Numbered from the stretch's first letter, positions 43,387 to 63,462 are shown. The stretch is DNA of 64,000 nucleotides from Gemmatimonadota bacterium (GCA_026706635.1 JAPOYJ010000070.1:1-64000); one strand, 5' to 3'. A program made the numbers and translations. Notes: generated by a model not told the origin, from the letters alone.

Positions 43387-43483
43387 GGGGGCGGATCGGG
43401 ACTGGTGTTCCGTCTGGTCTTCAAAACCAGTGTGCCCGGCTGAAACCCGGGTGGGTGGGTTCGATTCCCACACGCCCCCGCCA
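43387..43483 (+). tRNA. selC: tRNA-Sec (anticodon TCA)
   Basis: About 97 nt with the marks of selenocysteine tRNA: a 6-bp D stem CGGGAC/GTTCCG closed by a 4-nt loop, and anticodon stem CTGGT/ACCAG around CTTCAAA. A long variable arm is built on CCCGG/CCGGG. The T arm is GTGGGTTCGATTCCCAC. The acceptor pairs GGGGGCG with CGCCCCC; the eighth pair of the bacterial type would be G-A. Discriminator G and CCA are encoded. It implies UGA recoding in this organism. Confidence 0.92.
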
Positions 43484-43529
43484 CTCGACTGTATCTTCCA
43501 CCCCCATGGAGAGGTCTCACACTGCACGG

Positions 43530-43603
43530 CGGGGCGTGGCGCAGCTCGGTAGCGCGCCTGCTTTGGGAGCAGGAGGTCGCCGGTTCGAATCCGGCCGCCC
43601 CGA
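43530..43603 (+). tRNA. tRNA-Pro (anticodon TGG)
   Basis: A 74-nt cloverleaf. Acceptor CGGGGCG/CGCCCCG, discriminator A, anticodon loop TTTGGGA. T arm GCCGGTTCGAATCCGGC. CCA is not encoded. Confidence 0.95.
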
Positions 43604-43696
43604 CTGGCAGGGAGTCGTTGACATGCCTTGGCGAGCGGCGACGATTGTGATGTTTCCCGGCCAGTATTGCGCGAATGGCCCGCGAGGAGAAACACA

Positions 43697-54118: not shown

Positions 54119-54355
54119 TAGCCCGCGTGGACATAATCCTCCCGGTAATCGAGCTGCGGTGCATCCGCGCTGGGCCGCCGGCTCGGCCACAATGACAACT
54201 AAACTTTACATTGTGTCGTGTTTACTATACATCGGATCCTCTCGCGGCTCCGCTCTGCGCGGCTCCTTGGACCAACAGCGCTGCTATTCCCCCGTCGTCG
54301 CGCCTTGCCAGCCCGGCACCTCGGCGCTCGGGCGGCTCCACGCACGGACCACTAG
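54119..54355 (+). repeat. Diverged repeat copy R13 at the edge of the accessory block
   Basis: Left end TAGCCCGCGTGGACATAAT, right end CTCCACGCACGGACCACTAG. The tandem module is diverged in sequence but keeps the 18-3-18 spacing (54193-54210 and 54214-54231). It lies upstream of the ATPase/PIN/ligase cassette and may drive it. Nothing else is seen in 54082-54367. Confidence 0.6.
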
Positions 54356-54367
54356 GATGACGGCACC

Positions 54368-55795
54368 GTGATTACCCGGCTCCGGCTGACGAATTTCAAG
54401 GCATGGAAGGAGCTCAAGATCGAATTCGCGCCCGTCACTGGGATGTTCGGAGCCAACAGTGCGGGGAAGAGCAGCCTCCTTCAGTTCCTCTTACTGCTGA
54501 AACAGACTCGTGATGCGACCGACCGACGCATCGTTCTGGAATTCGGTGGTCCCGATGGGCTGGCCAATCTCGGCAGCTACCGCGAAGTGGTCCATGGCCA
54601 TGATTCCAGCGCCGACATCAGTTGGAGACTCGCGTGGAGGTTACCGAAGGAACGCCGGATCGCGGCTCTATCGGGTGATGGACGGCCGGTCACCCTCTCG
54701 GGCCAGGAGATTGAAACTCACTGCGCGGTCGGCCTTTCGGAAACCGGTCGCTCATCCACACCCATTGCGCACAGACTGACCTACCGATTTGACGACTACC
54801 AATTCACGCTGGTACAATCCGAGAACGGACCGAAGAAAGGGTACGGACTGGATATCTCACACGAGAACCAGGAGTTCACCCTCAAGCGCCAGCAAGGCCG
54901 CCCCTTCGATCGAATCCCGCCCCCAGTCAAGACCCACTTGTTTCCTCCCGAGGTCAAGTGGGCCTATCAGAACACCGATTTTCTCAGCGATTTCGAACTT
55001 GAATACGAAGGCCTGATGGACCGAATCTACTATCTGGGTCCGCTCCGGGAGTACCCGCTACGGCACTACGACTGGAGCGGGGCTAGTCCGGCGGATGTCG
55101 GATCTCGCGGTGAACGTGCCATTCACGCCATCCTGGCCGCTGCTGCGCAAGAGGAGACTCGAAGTCTTCAGCCTCGCGCATGGCGGCGCCCGTTCCAGGA
55201 AATCATCGCACACTGGCTCCGGGAACTGGGGCTGGTCGATCGATTCGCGACCGCAGAGATCGGATCCGGGTCCAACGTTTATCAGACGCGCGTCACTGCC
55301 AACTCTTCCAAGACTCCGACCAGCCTCACCGATGTGGGATTTGGGGTCTCCCAGATTTTGCCGGTCCTGGTACTCCTCTACTATGTCCCCAGGGGGTCCG
55401 TAGTGCTGCTGGAACAGCCCGAAATACACCTGCACCCCGCCGTGCAGAGCCGTCTGGCTGACCTGTTTCTGTGTGTCGCCAAGCACCGGAACCTCCAGAT
55501 CATCGTCGAATCGCACAGCCAGCACCTCCTGCAGCGGCTCCAACGACGAGTTGCCGAACAGCAAGTTCATGTTCCGGGGAGGGAAGCCTACCCTGCCTTT
55601 ATGGTCTCCTCCGACGATGTGCGCCTCTACTTCTCGTCGGTCTCGGGTGGCGTCGGCAAACTGGAAGATCTGCAGCTGAACCACTGGGGAGAGATCGAGA
55701 ACTGGCCGGACGGATTTTTCGGGGACGAAATGGAAGAGATCGCCGCGATCAGCTCTGCTACCCTCCGACGCAAGCTGGCAGGTTCGTCCGGGTGA
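54368..55795 (+). CDS. AAA/ABC-type ATPase with DUF3696-like C-terminus
   Basis: 475 aa, SMC/Rad50-like single-chain ATPase. Walker A is GANSAGKSS (residues 28-36). A long middle insertion follows. The signature-like segment LTDVGFGVSQILPVL and Walker B VVLLEQPEIHLHP come near residue 320-360; VESHSQHLL follows. The C-terminal WGEIENWPDGFF is the DUF3696 mark. Such ATPases act as sensors or motors in several phage-defence systems. It looks less GC-rich than the core genes, which suggests transfer. GTG 54368 starts it; its stop overlaps the nuclease start (GTGA). Confidence 0.85.
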   Translation: MITRLRLTNFKAWKELKIEFAPVTGMFGANSAGKSSLLQFLLLLKQTRDATDRRIVLEFGGPDGLANLGSYREVVHGHDSSADISWRLAWRLPKERRIAALSGDGRPVTLSGQEIETHCAVGLSETGRSSTPIAHRLTYRFDDYQFTLVQSENGPKKGYGLDISHENQEFTLKRQQGRPFDRIPPPVKTHLFPPEVKWAYQNTDFLSDFELEYEGLMDRIYYLGPLREYPLRHYDWSGASPADVGSRGERAIHAILAAAAQEETRSLQPRAWRRPFQEIIAHWLRELGLVDRFATAEIGSGSNVYQTRVTANSSKTPTSLTDVGFGVSQILPVLVLLYYVPRGSVVLLEQPEIHLHPAVQSRLADLFLCVAKHRNLQIIVESHSQHLLQRLQRRVAEQQVHVPGREAYPAFMVSSDDVRLYFSSVSGGVGKLEDLQLNHWGEIENWPDGFFGDEMEEIAAISSATLRRKLAGSSG

Positions 55796-56304
55796 GGGAC
55801 CGGAGTGTCGTAGACACCAACGTTCTCGTCGTCGCTAACGGGCGGGCCACTCATGTAAACAAACACTGCCAGCTGGCTTGCGTGGACGAGCTAGCACGGC
55901 TCGCCCGCGAGGACGTGGTGTGTGTCGACGACAAATTCCTCATCCTGGGTGAGTATGGAAGGAGGATCGGACAACGGGGACAGGAGAAATCCGGCACGGT
56001 CTTCTACAAGCATGTCTGGCAGAAGATGCGCGACACGAACCGAGTCCGCCTGATCTCTGTCGATCCCATTGACCGGGAGGGCAGGGACTTCAGTGACCCG
56101 ATCCTTCCAACGAACAACCTGAAGAAGGATGCGAAGTTCCTGGCCGTCGCCGTCAAGGCCCAAGCCACCATCGTGAACGCCACCGATTCGGACTGGACCG
56201 AGCATCGTGAGCTGACCGATCGGTTGGGGGTCGACGTGAGACAGCTGTGCCCTGAGCACGCGATCCGACCTGGGAAATCGAACGGCGACCATGCTTTCCA
56301 GTAG
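55792..56304 (+). CDS. PIN-like ribonuclease domain protein
   Basis: 170 aa. It starts VVDTNVLVVAN (Asp8); a further acid is Glu54 in ILGEYG. KKDAKFLAVAVKA (Asp113) and NATDSDW (Asp132, Asp134) complete an acidic cluster like that of PIN nucleases, which cut RNA with Mg or Mn. There is no separate antitoxin. It is locked between the ATPase (GTGA overlap) and an RNA ligase (14-bp overlap), so the ATPase probably controls it. Target RNA unknown. Confidence 0.78.
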   Translation: MRDRSVVDTNVLVVANGRATHVNKHCQLACVDELARLAREDVVCVDDKFLILGEYGRRIGQRGQEKSGTVFYKHVWQKMRDTNRVRLISVDPIDREGRDFSDPILPTNNLKKDAKFLAVAVKAQATIVNATDSDWTEHRELTDRLGVDVRQLCPEHAIRPGKSNGDHAFQ

Positions 56305-56962
56305 CCTGAAATACCCCCGCACTCCCTACTGGCCCTACTCCCCAGGCATTGGCCGTCACGACACGGTTCATCCCGAGCCCCAGCGGTTCGTCGGCTGCCG
56401 GGTCGTTGTGACCGAAAAGCTCGACGGAAGCAATGTCCTGATCCACCGGGGGAAGGTCTACGGGCGCTCCGTCGCTGACGAGGCAGCTCACAAGTGGATG
56501 GCGATGGTCAAGAAGCACCATGCCTGGAAGGTCAACGAGCCGGATGCCTACCTCTACGGCGAGGACATCTACGGCGTGCACAGCATCGAGTACGGAGCGG
56601 TCAGGGAGGAGGCGACGTTCCATGCCTTCGCCCTGCGGGACTCGAGAGGGGACTTCTCGTCCGTGGCTGCCCTGGAGCGGTTCACCGCTGAACGGAGCAT
56701 CCCCGTTGTTCCCGTCGTCTACCGGGGTAGCTTCGTTTCCCTAACCGAGATGCGGTTGTTCCTCGAGGGCGAGCAGGCGAAACAATCCGTGCTCGGCGGC
56801 GAACGCGAGGGCACGGTCGTGCGCATTGCCGATGGCTTCGCCTCACCCGAGTTCGCGCGCAACGTCTGCAAGAGCGTGCGGCGGGATCATGTGCAGACAG
56901 ACAGGCACTGGACTCGCAACTGGCGGCCCTGCAAGCTGGAACGGAAGACCCATCATGGATAG
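56291..56962 (+). CDS. RNA ligase (Rnl2-type nucleotidyltransferase)
   Basis: 223 aa. Motif I TEKLDGSN has the nucleophile Lys43; motif III is YLYGEDIYG, motif IIIa FHAFALRD, motif IV EGTVVR (Glu173). The C-terminal NVCKSVRRDHVQTDRHW is typical of small bacterial RNA ligases. It should seal 3'-OH/5'-phosphate RNA using ATP. The overlap with the PIN gene suggests that it repairs, or modifies, what that nuclease cuts. Confidence 0.85.
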   Translation: MLSSSLKYPRTPYWPYSPGIGRHDTVHPEPQRFVGCRVVVTEKLDGSNVLIHRGKVYGRSVADEAAHKWMAMVKKHHAWKVNEPDAYLYGEDIYGVHSIEYGAVREEATFHAFALRDSRGDFSSVAALERFTAERSIPVVPVVYRGSFVSLTEMRLFLEGEQAKQSVLGGEREGTVVRIADGFASPEFARNVCKSVRRDHVQTDRHWTRNWRPCKLERKTHHG

Positions 56963-58108: not shown

Positions 58109-58553
58109 GGCGGGTTGGGCGAGCCGTCGCACCGGGTTGCCCATGGAGCTCCAGAAGGCGGGCCGGTGTGATGATCGGTATCCCGTGGAACGGAGACATG
58201 GCGAGCAGGTCGCCGTCACCCGTCACCAGGTGGTCGGCGCGACCCATGAGCGCCGTCTCCAGGATCTTGTCGTCCGTGGTGTCGCGGCAGCCGAGGCTGG
58301 CACCGGCGATCGGGGCCCATTACGCAACCGCCGCCGCCAGCGCGACGAAGGCTGCACGGGATTCCCGACCCACATAGCGGTCGAAATTCGAGGCGAGGAT
58401 CCTGTAGCGAAGCTCGGCGAAGGTCTCGTCGCTGAAGAGTAGAACCCCGTTGCCTGCCCTGACGAGATCGACCACCCTGCGAGGTGGTCCGGTCCGGGTG
58501 AGGGCGGTGCTGATCAGAACGTTGGTGTCAAGTGCGACCCTGTCAGCTCTCAT
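58086..58553 (-). pseudogene. PIN-domain toxin broken by an in-frame TAA
   Basis: COG1569-like PIN protein: MRADRVALDTNVLIS (Asp in DTN), FSDETFAELRYRILA, then after the stop TTDDKILETALMGRADHLVTG. Reading is interrupted once, by TAA at 58322-58320 where relatives have a Glu codon before Trp. The second half, including the catalytic DD and D, is intact to TAG 58086. It overlaps the propeller gene end. No antitoxin gene is visible upstream. It is likely decayed. Confidence 0.75.
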
Positions 58554-58604
58554 CGGAGAGCCCTGATGGTCAAGACGGGCCTTGGTGCACTCGGGCTTAG
58601 TCAC

Positions 58605-58640
58605 TGACCAAGCTGTTGCGGCGCGCCGCCTACTTGGTCA
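58605..58640. promoter_or_regulatory. Inverted repeat, possible operator of the AlbA_2-type gene
   Basis: TGACCAAG (58605-58612) and CTTGGTCA (58633-58640) with a 20-bp centre, about 50 bp before the ATG. A further TGGTCAAG half-site is at 58567. Similar words recur inside the coding region near 59660-59710. Self-repression by the winged helix of the product is plausible. Confidence 0.4.
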
Positions 58641-58689
58641 CTGTTCAAGCGAAGGTTGCGCCAACGGACGCCAACGGAGGCCGGGGGAC

Positions 58690-59945
58690 ATGGATCGCGA
58701 GGAGCCTGGAGGCCCGACGGAGCGGCACGAGTGGCCGGAGGCCGAGCACGGCGAGGAGCGCTTCCCGCAGGACGACGCTGCGGGCCGGTACGACGGCGGG
58801 GTCCTGGAGGAGCTGGAGGCGCACCAGTTCTTCCATCCCCGGTCGGTGCGCTGGTACCGGTCGATCTTCTCCGATCGGAGCCCCGACCATGGACGGGACC
58901 TCGGCGATGTGGAGTTCCTGCACGATAGGGGATGGGTCGTCGAGTGCGGCGACGGGCTGGTGCCGACGCGGGCGGCGGTGCTCGTCTTCGGGAGGGCGCG
59001 CTACCTTCGGCGGCTTCTGCCAGGCGGGGTGGTCGACTGTCAGTTCATTGACTACGCCCACGACAAATGGACGACCGACCGCCGCCGGACCGACCGGATC
59101 GTCGTCGAGGAGAACCTGCTCCAGGCTTGGCTGACCGTTACGGAGCGCTACATGCGGCGTGCGGAGCGCCCGTTCCGCCTGGACCCGCGAACCATGCTTT
59201 CCAGCGACCATCCGCCCGGCTACGCGTCCTTCCGGGAAGCCTTCGTCAACCAGCTGATCCATCAGGACTACCCGACAGCGGGCGCACGGCCTTCATCCGC
59301 TTCTATCGCGACCGGACGGTCTTCTGGAACCCGGGGGACGCCGACGCCCCGACCGGCGAGCTGCTCGACCGGACGGCGAAGGAGGTGCGGAATCCTCTGA
59401 TCGCGGCGGCGTTTCGCGGAATCGGCCTCGCAAGGCAGGCGGGCACCGGGATCCGGGCCATCTTCCACGACTGGCAGAGTCTCGGCCACGCCCCTCCCCT
59501 GATCCGCAGCGACGAGGTCCGAAACGAGTTCGAGCTGACGCTGATGGGGAGAGAAACGCCGGCTGGGAAGTGGGGGCCGACGGTGGGGACGTGCGGGGAA
59601 CCAGTCGAGGATCGCGGCGACGACGAACGTCCCGTGGACCCGCCAGGTGCGGACATGGACAGTGACCATGGTGACCAAGTGCGCTCCGACATGGACAGTG
59701 ATCAAGTTGGGCTCCAGCTGAGCGCCCGCCAGCGTGCTATCGTAGCGGCGTGCGACGTCCCGCGCAGCTTGGCCGAGCTCATGGAGCGCGCCAGCGTGTC
59801 GCATCGCTCCCACTTTCGCGCCAAGCACCTGAAGCCGCTGCTGGAGGCCGGGCTGGTCCGCATGACGAATCCCGGCAATCCGCGCGCGCCGAACCAGAGG
59901 TACGTGCTGACGGATGTGGGGGCTGCGGTGAAGGAGAGTGGATGA
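58690..59945 (+). pseudogene. AlbA_2/Schlafen-type ATP-binding regulator, frameshifted
   Basis: The first frame (ATG 58690) encodes VPTRAAVLVFG, a DCQFIDYAHDKWTTDRR stretch and REAFVNQLIHQDY. The family sequence then continues one frame over: AFIRFYRDRTVFWNPGDA, VRNPLIAAAFRGIGLARQAG and a C-terminal winged helix (LAELMERASVSHRSHFRAKH) to 59945. One base is missing near 59272-59276. The linker repeats DMDSDxxDQV twice, a feature I associate with this type of regulator. It is disrupted unless frameshifting or a sequencing error applies. Confidence 0.75.
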
Positions 59946-59982: not shown

Positions 59983-60036
59983 CTCCGGCCGCCACCCCGG
60001 CTTGCCCGCGCGATGCGCCGCCTCCACGTTCACGCG

Positions 60037-61626
60037 ATGAGGAAATTCAACACGGCGGGTCCGATCAGGCCCGCGCGCGACTACAACATCCCGCCGCTCG
60101 ACCGCCTCGACCTTCCGGAAGTGCTCGAGTTCATCAAGGACGAGCGCTATTTCGTCCTGCACGCCCCCCGCCAGACGGGAAAGACGTCGGCCCTGCTGGC
60201 GCTGCGCGGCCTGCTGAACGGGGGCACGGTCGGCGACTATCGCTGCGCGTACATCAACGTCGAGTCGGCGCAGACCGCGCGGGAGGACGTCGGGCGGGCG
60301 ATGGGCGCGATCGCCTCCCAGATCGCCCGCGAGGCGAGATACACGCTGAACGACCACGCCACGGCAGAGGTGGCGGAGGAGCTTGACACCAACCGGCGTC
60401 CGGACGACGCGCTCGGCACCCTTCTGGAGAGCTGGGCGCGGGCCGCCGATTCACCCCTCGTGCTGCTGATCGACGAGATCGACGCGATGGTGGGCGACTC
60501 GCTGGTGTCGGTGCTCCGGCAGCTCAGGACGGGCTACGTGCGCCGTCCGGAGGGCTTCCCCCAGAGCGTCGTCCTCTGCGGCGTGCGCGACGTGCGCGAC
60601 TACCGGATCCACGCGAGTTCGGAGAAGGAGGTCATCACGGGTGGCAGCACCTTCAACATCAAGGCCAGGTCGCTGCGGATGGGAGACTTCACGCGATCGG
60701 AGGTGGAGACCCTGCTCGGCCAGCACACCGCCGAGACCGGCCAGGAATTCGCGCCCGGGGCGCTGCGGGCCGTCTGGGAGCAGACCCGGGGGCAGCCCTG
60801 GCTCGTCAACGCGCTTGCGCTGGAGATGTGCTTCTCGTCGGGGATGCCGAAGGAGCCCGGCGAACCCCTGTGCGAACGGGACGTCTTCGAGGCGCGCGAG
60901 GCGCTGATCCTGCGCCGCGAGACGCACCTGGACCAGCTCGCCGACAAGCTGCGCGAGGAGCGCGTGCGCCGGGTGATCGAGCCGCTGCTGAGCGGGGGGG
61001 ACGGCCAGCACAGCGAGCGCGACTTCGAGTACGTGCGCGACCTGGGGCTGGTGGCTCCGGGCCGCACCCTGCGGGTGGCCAATCCCATCTACGGCGAGGT
61101 GCTGCCGAGGGAACTCACATGGGTGCTTCAGCACGAGATCGAGCCGCAGGAGGTCGCGTGGTACGTTCGCCCCGACGGCGGTCTGGACATCGACGCCCTG
61201 CTCGCCGCCTTCCAGGACTTCTTCAGGCAGAACTCCGAGCACTGGATCCGCCGGGCCCAGTACACCGAGGCGGGTCCGCAGCTGGTGCTGCAGGCGTTTC
61301 TGCACCGGGTGGTGAACGCGACCGGCCGGATCGAGCGCGAGTACGCGCTCGGCAGCCGCCGGGTGGACCTGCTGGTGGTCTGGCCGCGTGAAGGGGGGGC
61401 GGAGGACCGCATAGTGGTCGAGTGCAAGCTCGTCAGAGAGGGCCGCTCCCTCTCGCGCACGGTTGACGAGGGACTCGAACAGACCCGGCGCTACATGGAC
61501 ATCAGCGGCACGGACCAGGGCCATCTCGTGGTCTTCGACCTGCGCCCGGGCAGGAGCTGGGAGGAGAGGGTCTTCCGCGAGGAGAGGGAGCGGGAAGGCG
61601 CGCGGATCACGGTGTGGGGGGCGTGA
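60037..61626 (+). CDS. AAA-like ATPase fused to a PD-(D/E)XK nuclease-like domain
   Basis: 529 aa. Walker A APRQTGKTS (Lys49), Walker B LVLLIDEID, then a winged-helix-like middle (about 240-340). A C-terminal domain has SRRVDLLVV (Asp444) and RIVVECKLV (Glu462, Lys464), the PD-(D/E)XK pattern. ATG 60037 is preferred to 60013 because MRKFNTAGPIRP is the usual family start. Such proteins are widespread and of uncertain role, often in mobile or defence regions. Confidence 0.8.
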   Translation: MRKFNTAGPIRPARDYNIPPLDRLDLPEVLEFIKDERYFVLHAPRQTGKTSALLALRGLLNGGTVGDYRCAYINVESAQTAREDVGRAMGAIASQIAREARYTLNDHATAEVAEELDTNRRPDDALGTLLESWARAADSPLVLLIDEIDAMVGDSLVSVLRQLRTGYVRRPEGFPQSVVLCGVRDVRDYRIHASSEKEVITGGSTFNIKARSLRMGDFTRSEVETLLGQHTAETGQEFAPGALRAVWEQTRGQPWLVNALALEMCFSSGMPKEPGEPLCERDVFEAREALILRRETHLDQLADKLREERVRRVIEPLLSGGDGQHSERDFEYVRDLGLVAPGRTLRVANPIYGEVLPRELTWVLQHEIEPQEVAWYVRPDGGLDIDALLAAFQDFFRQNSEHWIRRAQYTEAGPQLVLQAFLHRVVNATGRIEREYALGSRRVDLLVVWPREGGAEDRIVVECKLVREGRSLSRTVDEGLEQTRRYMDISGTDQGHLVVFDLRPGRSWEERVFREEREREGARITVWGA

Positions 61627-61774: not shown

Positions 61775-62917
61775 ATGATCCGGAGATTCTACGCGGACAA
61801 CTTCCGCTGCCTGTTGAACTTCGAGCTGGAGCTCGACGAGCTGAATGTCTTCCTGGGCGCGAACGGAACCGGAAAGAGCTCGGTGTTCGACGCGCTGTGG
61901 AAGATCCAGCGGCTGGTCTACCGCGGCGGAAGGATCGACGAGATCTTCCGGCGGAGGGACCTGTCGCACCTATATGTCGGCAACCACCGGGACAATGCCG
62001 GTGTCCACGAGGATGGCGGCGTGCGGCAGAAGATCGAGCTTGATCTCGACATCGAGAGCCACTCGTACCACTACCGGTTGAGTATCGGCCACCGCGAACC
62101 CAGGAAGATGCGGATCGACGAGGAAGTCCTTCTGTGCGACGAGAGACCGCTCTTCGAGTTCCGAATCGGCGAGGCTCAGCTGTACCGGGATGACGGGAGT
62201 CGAGGACCGAAGTATCCGTTCGATTGGACGCAATCCGGACTCGCTGCCCTGCATGAGCGGCATGACAACAAGAAGCTGTCTCGCTTCAAGAGGGAGTTGG
62301 CGATGTGGACCATCGTCCGACCCTGTCCGCCGATCTTCGAGGAGGAAGCCAGGACGGAGGACGAGCTTCTGACACCGGCCATGACCAACTTCGTGGCGTG
62401 GTACCGCAGGGTCTCCCCGGAGCGGCTGGGCGCCGCCGTGGACCTGCTGGGCGATCTCCGTGACGTGCTTCCCTCGTTCGAGTCGCTGAGTCTCATCGCC
62501 ACCGGTGAAGACGCTCGCGCCTTGGAGGCCGTGTTCAAGCGGCCTCACGAGCGTTCGCGGTACCGGCTCGGACAGTTGTCGGACGGGCAGCGGGCGCTGA
62601 TCGCCTTGTATTGCCTGCTGCACTTCTGCGACGGAGGGGCGGAGAGGGCCTCGCTGTTCATTGACGAGCCCGACAACTACATCTCGCTACGGGAAGTGCA
62701 GCCATGGGTCGTGGCGCTCTCCGAAGCCCTCGGAGATACCCTCGAGCAGGCCGCCATCATCTCCCATCACCCCGTGACGATCGACTACCTGGGTGGGAAA
62801 GCCAAGTGGTTCTTCCGGAACGACGATGGACTGGCGCGGGTGCAGTACGAACCGCCTTCGTCTGTAGGAGCGCCGGGATCTTACTCCGAGATCATCGCGA
62901 GGGGTTGGGAGCGGTGA
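61775..62917 (+). CDS. AAA family ATPase (SMC-like), paired with a TOPRIM protein
   Basis: 380 aa. Walker A LGANGTGKSS (residues 28-36), ABC-like signature YRLGQLSDGQRALIAL, Walker B ASLFIDEPDNY and switch His in IISHHPVTIDYL. Close to AAA_15/AAA_21 ATPases. The GTGA overlap with the next gene makes a two-component unit like ATPase/TOPRIM anti-phage pairs (OLD and PARIS logic). ATG 61775 begins after a TAGATT-containing leader. Confidence 0.85.
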   Translation: MIRRFYADNFRCLLNFELELDELNVFLGANGTGKSSVFDALWKIQRLVYRGGRIDEIFRRRDLSHLYVGNHRDNAGVHEDGGVRQKIELDLDIESHSYHYRLSIGHREPRKMRIDEEVLLCDERPLFEFRIGEAQLYRDDGSRGPKYPFDWTQSGLAALHERHDNKKLSRFKRELAMWTIVRPCPPIFEEEARTEDELLTPAMTNFVAWYRRVSPERLGAAVDLLGDLRDVLPSFESLSLIATGEDARALEAVFKRPHERSRYRLGQLSDGQRALIALYCLLHFCDGGAERASLFIDEPDNYISLREVQPWVVALSEALGDTLEQAAIISHHPVTIDYLGGKAKWFFRNDDGLARVQYEPPSSVGAPGSYSEIIARGWER

Positions 62918-63462
62918 GCGCCAGTGTGGTTCTGCTCTGTGAGGACTCGCAGACTGACATGTTCCTACGTCGCTTTTTCCGTCGCCGGTTTGGCCGCCAG
63001 TTTCGTCGTCGGATTCACAGTGTTCCGTTTTCGGGTGGCATCCGCTCAGGTGAGCAGCATGTGCGTGAGAAGTTCCCCGACCAGTTGAGGCTGATTCGGG
63101 GCCGGAGGGGAGCCGTCCTGATTGCGGTCATAGACTCCGACATGGAATCAACGGAGGCTCGTCGAACGCAGCTTCAACAGCAGTGTGCGGCGCGGGACAT
63201 CGAGGCTCTTCGAGCTTCTGATCCAGTTCTCGTCTTGGTTCCGCGCCGCAATATCGAGACGTGGTTCCGTTACTTGGACGGCGCCGAGTTCGACGAGACG
63301 ACCCGCTATCCGCACCTCCGCCGTGAAGCCGATTGCGAGCCACTGGCCGACCGGCTGTACGACATGTGCCACGAGCAACAGAAGCTCGCGGAGCCAGCCC
63401 CGGCCTCGCTGGTCGAGGCGTGCCGGGAATACCCGAGGCTGACGCGGCTGCTACAACGCTGA
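62914..63462 (+). CDS. TOPRIM-like (DUF4276/OLD-type) nuclease candidate
   Basis: 182 aa. Glu10 in VVLLCEDSQTDMF, the DxD pair Asp74/Asp76 in IAVIDSDMES, and Glu115 in RRNIETWFRYLDG give the TOPRIM acid set. An Arg-rich strand follows the first helix. Probably the effector of the upstream ATPase. GTG 62914 overlaps its stop. The assignment to DUF4276 rather than another TOPRIM family is uncertain. Confidence 0.7.
   Translation: MSASVVLLCEDSQTDMFLRRFFRRRFGRQFRRRIHSVPFSGGIRSGEQHVREKFPDQLRLIRGRRGAVLIAVIDSDMESTEARRTQLQQQCAARDIEALRASDPVLVLVPRRNIETWFRYLDGAEFDETTRYPHLRREADCEPLADRLYDMCHEQQKLAEPAPASLVEACREYPRLTRLLQR

Follow-up and report, generated by a model that had tools for sequence, protein, structure and literature searches.

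What does an RNA ligase do in an operon whose other two genes form a candidate defence pair? The question is raised by a locus in a 64,000-nucleotide stretch of DNA from a Gemmatimonadota bacterium (GCA_026706635.1, JAPOYJ010000070.1:1-64000; hereafter the window), where genes for an ATPase, a PIN-fold nuclease and an RNA ligase follow one another in that order on the + strand, all of them overlapping. Ribonuclease-based phage defence is usually viewed as one-way self-damage, and RNA repair as the answer of the phage. An earlier reading made from the DNA alone (the sequence-only reading) had proposed an ATPase sensor that releases a ribonuclease, with the ligase either reversing the damage or making a new RNA joint. 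Its coordinates, gene order and both overlaps were found to be correct, the nuclease gene starting with a GTG inside the ATPase stop (4 bp overlap, GTGA) and the ligase gene overlapping the nuclease gene by 14 bp, and so was its remark that the region is poorer in G + C than its surroundings (0.606-0.614 across 54-57 kb, the remainder of the window being mostly 0.66-0.72). The trio is real and conserved, and what was not expected is that a defence ribonuclease has been paired with an RNA ligase more than once.

The first two genes are a HEC-03 pair

The product of the first gene matched the PADLOC model HEC-03B (E = 2.6e-181; residues 1-471 aligned to model positions 1-454 of 458) and that of the second gene matched HEC-03A (E = 7.2e-46; residues 5-159 aligned to model positions 3-157 of 159), which makes the two genes the candidate defence pair HEC-03. 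HEC-03 is 'Hma-embedded candidate' 03 of PADLOC and consists of two models (HEC-03A and HEC-03B) with none for a ligase. The statement that the trio is not a named system therefore stands for the trio within the literature searched and fails for the ATPase-nuclease pair; as the pair already bears a candidate name, it is only the addition of the ligase that is unnamed. The trio was not found as a described system in the literature searched, outside which lay 10.1093/nar/gkw722 and the HEC preprint, so that an earlier mention is possible; the mention of HEC-03 that was found names no ligase.

Pfam matches of the ATPase to AAA_15 (4e-25), DUF3696 (1.3e-6) and also AAA_21 bore out its assignment to the DUF3696 type. 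AriA models from PARIS cross-match it weakly, HEC-03B being far the better model. The Walker A motif is GANSAGKS and the Walker B region LLEQPEIHLHP, so that a glutamine occupies the position of the ABC-type catalytic glutamate. This EQPE is found in 78 of 81 HEC-03B ATPases and is common to HEC-03 forms with and without a ligase. Glutamine at this position makes fast ATP hydrolysis doubtful. The motif hints at a long-lived ATP-bound state, in which case the ATPase would switch slowly. The middle of the protein can differ sharply between near relatives: in one pair of loci (L039 and L042) it is 46-64% identical, against 89-100% for the nuclease and ligase and mostly 92-99% for the flanks. A weaker form of the fast-changing ATPase was seen in L044/L045 and L021/L022, and some other close pairs show none. 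Such hypervariability would be the pattern expected from sensor diversification or from allele exchange, and lends indirect support to the proposal that the ATPase is a sensor. Purifying selection acts on each of the three genes: dN/dS is mostly 0.09-0.3, and the maximum of 0.46 stems from two nucleases that differ by very few changes.

The nuclease had no meaningful Pfam match, no Pfam PIN model being hit at E <= 0.1, and the matches obtained for it in a sequence search of the PDB (designed TIM barrels and a chemokine) were spurious. Its AlphaFold2 model, built from a 79-row alignment (predicted local distance difference test score, pLDDT, 91.6), has a PIN fold. The structures that it matched best were those of VapC toxins and of further PIN proteins (7vwo at a Foldseek E of 1.5e-3), and alignment with VapC11 of VapBC11 (6a7v) gave a VIA-align Z of 9.9 and a root-mean-square deviation of 3.1 over 120 residues. 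The acids D8, D46, E54, D113, D132 and D134 are invariant or nearly so across 79 relatives. Structure prediction, which the sequence-only reading had named as the check on its PIN-like nuclease, thus returned both the fold and a conserved acid cluster. The active site is equally conserved whether or not the operon has a ligase. The possibility that HEC-03 or its nuclease is a phage gene was discarded, relatives of the nuclease being absent from the viral contigs and phage records searched.

The third gene encodes a minimal RNA ligase

The third protein matched Pfam RNA_ligase (PF09414, 1.4e-18) and the PHROG families 34045 (1.4e-32) and 24030 ('RNA ligase', 1.5e-30), no PADLOC or NCBIfam model, and by sequence no PDB entry. 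Its structural model (pLDDT 88.3) was closest to Naegleria NgrRnl (VIA-align Z 16.4), with T4 Rnl2 nearly level at Z 15.6, and the match spans the nucleotidyltransferase domain only (NgrRnl 139-339), the 223-residue protein being without a second domain such as the N-terminal OB domain of Rnl5 or the C-terminal domain of Rnl2. The RNA ligase fold is therefore upheld but the label 'Rnl2-type' is approximate. Nucleotidyltransferase motifs I to V are all present, with K43, D45 and G46 (of K-x-D-G), E91, F113, E173, R178, K194 and R197 invariant in 44 relatives. The nearest sequence kin are ligases on large viral contigs, and in the ligase tree those of the window type form one clade (100/97) to which viral-contig ligases are sisters. 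One viral-contig ligase (L106:6001-6660) has an in-frame stop, possibly because the phage is recoded or the sequence is in error.

The trio recurs across phyla

Among 395 genomes of the phylum, HEC-03A was found in nine, with the ligase directly behind the nuclease in seven of these. The ligase family was likewise found in nine, seven times beside HEC-03 and twice at the same syntenic site without the ATPase and nuclease. The linkage of ligase to HEC-03 is far beyond chance. For a wider scan, a single-sequence nuclease query of genome contigs gave no matches, and a nine-row nuclease alignment gave 259 relatives; the best 80 of them were taken further. The ligase adjoins the nuclease in 38 of these 80 HEC-03 loci (median gap 16 bp, range -25 to +82 bp), a share that leans to window-like loci and is not a global prevalence, because the best 80 of 259 are those closest to the query. 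One locus (L067) has the ligase beside the nuclease on the opposite strand, and in a Spirochaetia metagenome-assembled genome (MAG), which is not counted among the 38, the ligase lies in fragments behind an otherwise intact pair (L036:6479-6886). By record name the trios belong to six phyla (Gemmatimonadota, Acidobacteriota, Pseudomonadota, Binatota, Myxococcota and Spirochaetota), and among named records the nearest matches to the window are in Gemmatimonadota MAGs. At the DNA level no HEC-03 copy was present in 5,426 Escherichia coli genomes.

Of 83 loci examined, 82 have the ATPase gene together with the nuclease gene, and the ligase always sits next to the nuclease, never elsewhere within the defence loci sampled. 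On a tree of 77 ATPases the ligase label requires two changes, compared with 25.9 when labels are shuffled, and one change after long branches are thinned. Distances between ATPases, nucleases and ligases correlate over 32 loci (r 0.82-0.87), although shared ancestry contributes to this. Conservation of the linkage across phyla rules out chance neighbours, and the adjacency of the three genes that the sequence-only reading had asked to see in other genomes is borne out both by the 38 of 80 loci and by the seven of nine genomes of the phylum that have HEC-03A.

Ligases of two clades occupy the third slot

Plasmids of Azotobacter, Aeromonas, Tistrella and Rhodococcus, some of the HEC-03 plasmids being conjugative, carry a DUF3696-type ATPase, a HEC-03A protein and an 'RNA ligase family protein' in the same order, and HEC-03A/B matches were confirmed for the Azotobacter and Rhodococcus loci. 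The trio of Azotobacter chroococcum lies on pAcX50e (L108:3617-6235). The plasmid-type ligase is about 26% identical to that of the window and lies in another part of the ligase tree. A single ancestral ligase in all HEC-03, that is, one clade, was rejected by the approximately unbiased test (p-AU 3.5e-5, with long branches involved), and by its ATPases the plasmid type falls among ligase-less HEC-03, which together indicate that ligases joined HEC-03 at least two times. The simplest reading is that RNA ligases filled the third slot at least twice independently, and the recruitment of two ligase clades would be an unusually clean evolutionary signal of functional coupling. In Acinetobacter plasmids the third slot is held by a gene annotated as an HNH endonuclease; on one of them, from Acinetobacter soli (L109:3627-6284), HEC-03 has a split ATPase gene, the HNH-annotated gene in the ligase slot and an N-6 DNA methylase upstream.

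HEC-03 ligases lack a neighbouring end-healing gene

The combination of HD and AAA_33 kinase domains is the make-up of RNA end-healing phosphatase-kinases. Of ten cellular ligases sampled outside HEC-03 loci, seven have a gene of this kind close by; for the HEC-03 ligases none was found in 43 loci (39 of the window type and four of the plasmid type; about 5 kb of flank where available). In operon-like groups on plasmids a ligase is accompanied by HD/AAA_33 in Deinococcus, Pseudomonas, Bosea, Sphaerospermopsis, Variovorax and Embleya (L110, L113-L116, L118 and L124), and in D. radiodurans a TIGR02452 protein lies between the ligase and the HD + AAA_33 protein. As they have no HD-kinase neighbour, HEC-03 ligases would be able to act only on ends that need no healing. 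PIN enzymes are expected to leave 5'-phosphate and 3'-OH ends, as two-metal nucleases do, and for a PIN nuclease with such products a healing enzyme would be unnecessary. ATP-dependent ligases of this kind require a 5'-phosphate and a 3'-OH (PMC7824862), and these are also the ends left by AriB, the effector of PARIS (PMC12409363). The missing healing gene would thus fit the directly sealable ends of metal-dependent nucleases.

Genomic surroundings and solitary ligases

Ligase-less HEC-03 pairs were found inside type III methylase, DISARM (DrmMI, DrmD) and Hma/DUF499 loci, which supports a defence role of the pair. In the genus of the window the system is patchy, being present in six of 23 genomes at two sites: five of the six share one syntenic site, and in the genome of the window, a 2.8-Mb draft in which the window is contig C30, the left flank of that site (contig C41) lacks the system and the copy lies elsewhere. 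A McrC-like open reading frame (ORF) was noted near the counterpart of the five-genome site in another genome, G000 (L144:3049-4191), which is possibly a defence hotspot.

Two genomes (G017 and G153) have an orphan ligase at the site that is syntenic with the trio in relatives, HEC-03A being missing. In G017 the leader found in front of the ATPase in related loci, which matches the low-GC leader of the window, stands directly before an intact ligase, the ATPase and nuclease having gone. G153 has a different junction, and its ligase has a stop at codon 42, in the active-site motif. The two orphan ligases did not group together (weak support). A ligase kept alone might be what an antidote would show.

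Proposed mechanism and alternatives

We propose, at about an even chance of being right, that the locus is a variant of HEC-03 in which a sensor-gated ribonuclease defence has its own ligase to reseal its cuts, either as protection against leakage or for recovery. Within this proposal we infer the phage trigger, the RNA target, the end chemistry and the antidote role. By analogy with AriA and AriB of PARIS, the ATP-bound HEC-03B ATPase would be the sensor that keeps the PIN nuclease inactive, and a phage-derived trigger would meet its variable middle part, whereupon the nuclease would be freed or activated. The nuclease would then cut cellular or phage RNA, most likely tRNA or other structured RNA of translation, leaving what PIN chemistry predicts to be 5'-phosphate and 3'-OH ends that the ligase would join directly with ATP, without a kinase or phosphatase. 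As it would need neither, the ligase could buffer a leaky nuclease before infection and permit the cell to recover afterwards. Of the two roles offered by the sequence-only reading, reversal of damage would be the better supported and a new RNA joint the less so.

Several findings weigh against this proposal. About half of the sampled HEC-03 loci have no ligase, so that the nuclease does not depend on the ligase everywhere. The ligase-bearing loci are poor in defence genes (few PADLOC matches among 108 neighbours, which are mostly housekeeping), and in four Acidobacteriota loci (L039, L042, L046 and L064) thrS precedes the HEC-03 ATPase gene by about 25 bp. The orphan ligases, of which one is broken, may be remnants in decay, EQPE puts a gate driven by ATP hydrolysis in question, and the viral kinship of the closest ligases fits general RNA repair as well. 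In three of the four Acidobacteriota genomes the thrS beside HEC-03 is the sole thrS found.

General repair would make the ligase an add-on, and no specific antidote to the PIN nuclease, that repairs the damage done to tRNAs or rRNAs in the same conflict by other nucleases (of phage, toxin or host) and merely shares the operon. The intact ligase that persists alone in G017 and the nearest relatives on large viral contigs speak for it, as does the view that the ATP-grasp ligases of jumbo phages mend tRNAs cut by host defences (PMC7824862). However, without the HD-kinase neighbour usual for their HEC-03-free relatives the HEC-03 ligases would be limited to ends that need no healing, and it is always the nuclease that the ligase adjoins rather than other parts of defence loci, so that we think general repair unlikely. 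The housekeeping surroundings, with four loci behind thrS, and the many hosts that are apparently sponge-associated MAGs would instead suit an accessory RNA-processing system outside defence, comparable to HARP with Rnl3 and serving the maturation of host RNA. Patchy presence in the genus (6/23, at two sites), carriage on conjugative plasmids, a sensor-like hypervariable ATPase middle and a ligase-less sister pair embedded in restriction and DISARM-like loci are not what such a system would lead one to expect, and we regard it as improbable.

The fixed order and overlap of the nuclease and ligase genes, together with the circularisation of RNA by the HARP-associated archaeal Rnl3 (PMC12153264), would agree with an effector in which cutting by the nuclease and joining by the ligase follow each other so that a target RNA is rearranged or circularised, the joined product and not the break being the output. 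In an immune form of this scheme, once the sensor had fired, new circles or chimeras would shut off phage translation or serve as a signal, and the ligase would not simply be mending damage. The scheme has to accommodate the half or so of sampled loci that have no ligase, with the nuclease active site kept equally either way, and the two genomes that have a ligase without the nuclease; both its general and its immune form appear to us slightly more doubtful than a role outside defence. Least probable, in our judgement, is toxin-antitoxin addiction, in which the ATPase, the ligase or both would be the antitoxin of a VapC-like toxin and the benefit would lie mainly in maintenance of the plasmid or island. 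VapC toxins are indeed the nearest structures to the PIN fold, the plasmid copies stand beside AbiEii- and Hok-type genes, and orphan ligases recall orphan antitoxins. On the other hand a VapB-like antitoxin gene is lacking, the upstream gene being a 475-residue ATPase whose family also occurs in defence systems, and addiction by itself would leave the hypervariable middle of the ATPase unexplained.

If a defence operon has repeatedly gained its own RNA ligase, this suggests a reversible immunity in which the cell cuts, survives and reseals, and three small genes make tolerance of defence ribonucleases, and recovery from them, a testable question. The uncharacterised HEC-03 also gains a predicted nuclease chemistry and a natural comparison between trio, pair and orphan ligase.

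Layout of the locus and neighbouring genes

Table 1. Position and assignment of the cassette genes and their leader in the window
Feature	Position	Strand	Product	Basis
HEC-03B-type ABC/AAA_15-DUF3696 ATPase, putative sensor and gate	54368..55795	+	475 aa, GTG start	PADLOC, Pfam, Walker motifs
HEC-03A PIN-fold nuclease, putative ribonuclease effector	55792..56304	+	170 aa, GTG start	PADLOC, AlphaFold2, VIA-align, acid cluster
Minimal ATP-dependent RNA ligase, nucleotidyltransferase domain alone	56291..56962	+	223 aa	Pfam, PHROG, fold match, motifs
Low-GC leader 5' of the cassette, expected site of promoter and ribosome-binding site	54199..54367	+		sequence only

Beyond the cassette (Table 1) lies a short PIN_3 toxin-like ORF on the - strand (58320-58604, 94 aa) that aligns to just the first half of the PIN_3 model and is probably truncated. 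It is followed on the + strand by two overlapping ORFs (58582-59945) that are seemingly one gene frameshifted near 59260, as a pseudogene or through an assembly error, and that by eye resemble AlbA_2/RecG-like ATP-binding proteins. An AAA ATPase at 60013-61626 has a weak C-terminal PD-(D/E)XK match and no PADLOC match. At 61775-63462 an AAA_15 ATPase (cross-matching PDC-M25A, MADS mad3 and HEC-01A) precedes a protein with a weak mad4/HEC-01B match, and the two are possibly a further ATPase-effector defence pair. Elsewhere in the window a tRNA-SeC adjoins a tRNA-Pro (43387-43604), so that selenocysteine is probably used by the organism.

Comparison with known systems

With respect to HEC-03 itself, the first two genes of the cassette are full-length members with the same order and overlap, but the loci that have a ligase, unlike the ligase-less pairs, do not lie within Hma or restriction loci. 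Three familiar arrangements differ in the partner gene: the PIN protein has a 475-residue ATPase and a 223-residue ligase as its neighbours where VapBC has a small antitoxin gene; the second and third genes have no HNH or PtuB match, as the partner in Septu would; and they match PIN/HEC-03A and RNA_ligase rather than the GajB helicase of Gabija. T4 Pnkp/Rnl1, acting against PrrC, and the ligases of jumbo phages likewise set an RNA ligase against a defence ribonuclease, but these are viral counter-defence, whereas the window ligase shares an operon with the nuclease. Small ligases homologous to that of the window are found in the HD-kinase repair operons of Deinococcus and of Bosea, Variovorax and Pseudomonas plasmids, which carry the HD + AAA_33 gene, presumably for end-healing, that is missing at HEC-03 loci and with which no PIN nuclease or DUF3696 ATPase was found.

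PARIS (the ATPase AriA with the Toprim tRNase AriB) shares with the cassette an ABC ATPase sensor and a metal-dependent nuclease effector; the window has a PIN instead of a Toprim nuclease, with no match to AriB models, and an RNA ligase in addition. In archaea Rnl3 is associated with the PIN-family nuclease HARP and circularises RNA, and a toxin-antitoxin role was considered by the authors (PMC12153264). HARP, a PIN-family protein-only RNase P, and Rnl3 thus also place a PIN nuclease gene with an ATP-dependent RNA ligase, but they have no ATPase, belong to other nuclease and ligase families (the window proteins are neither a HARP-type PIN nor an Rnl3 ligase, TIGR01209), are usually bidirectional rather than overlapping and occur in extremophiles. 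PARIS is thus the nearest precedent for the logic of ATPase and nuclease, and HARP-Rnl3 for the co-localisation of nuclease and ligase; neither is the same system.

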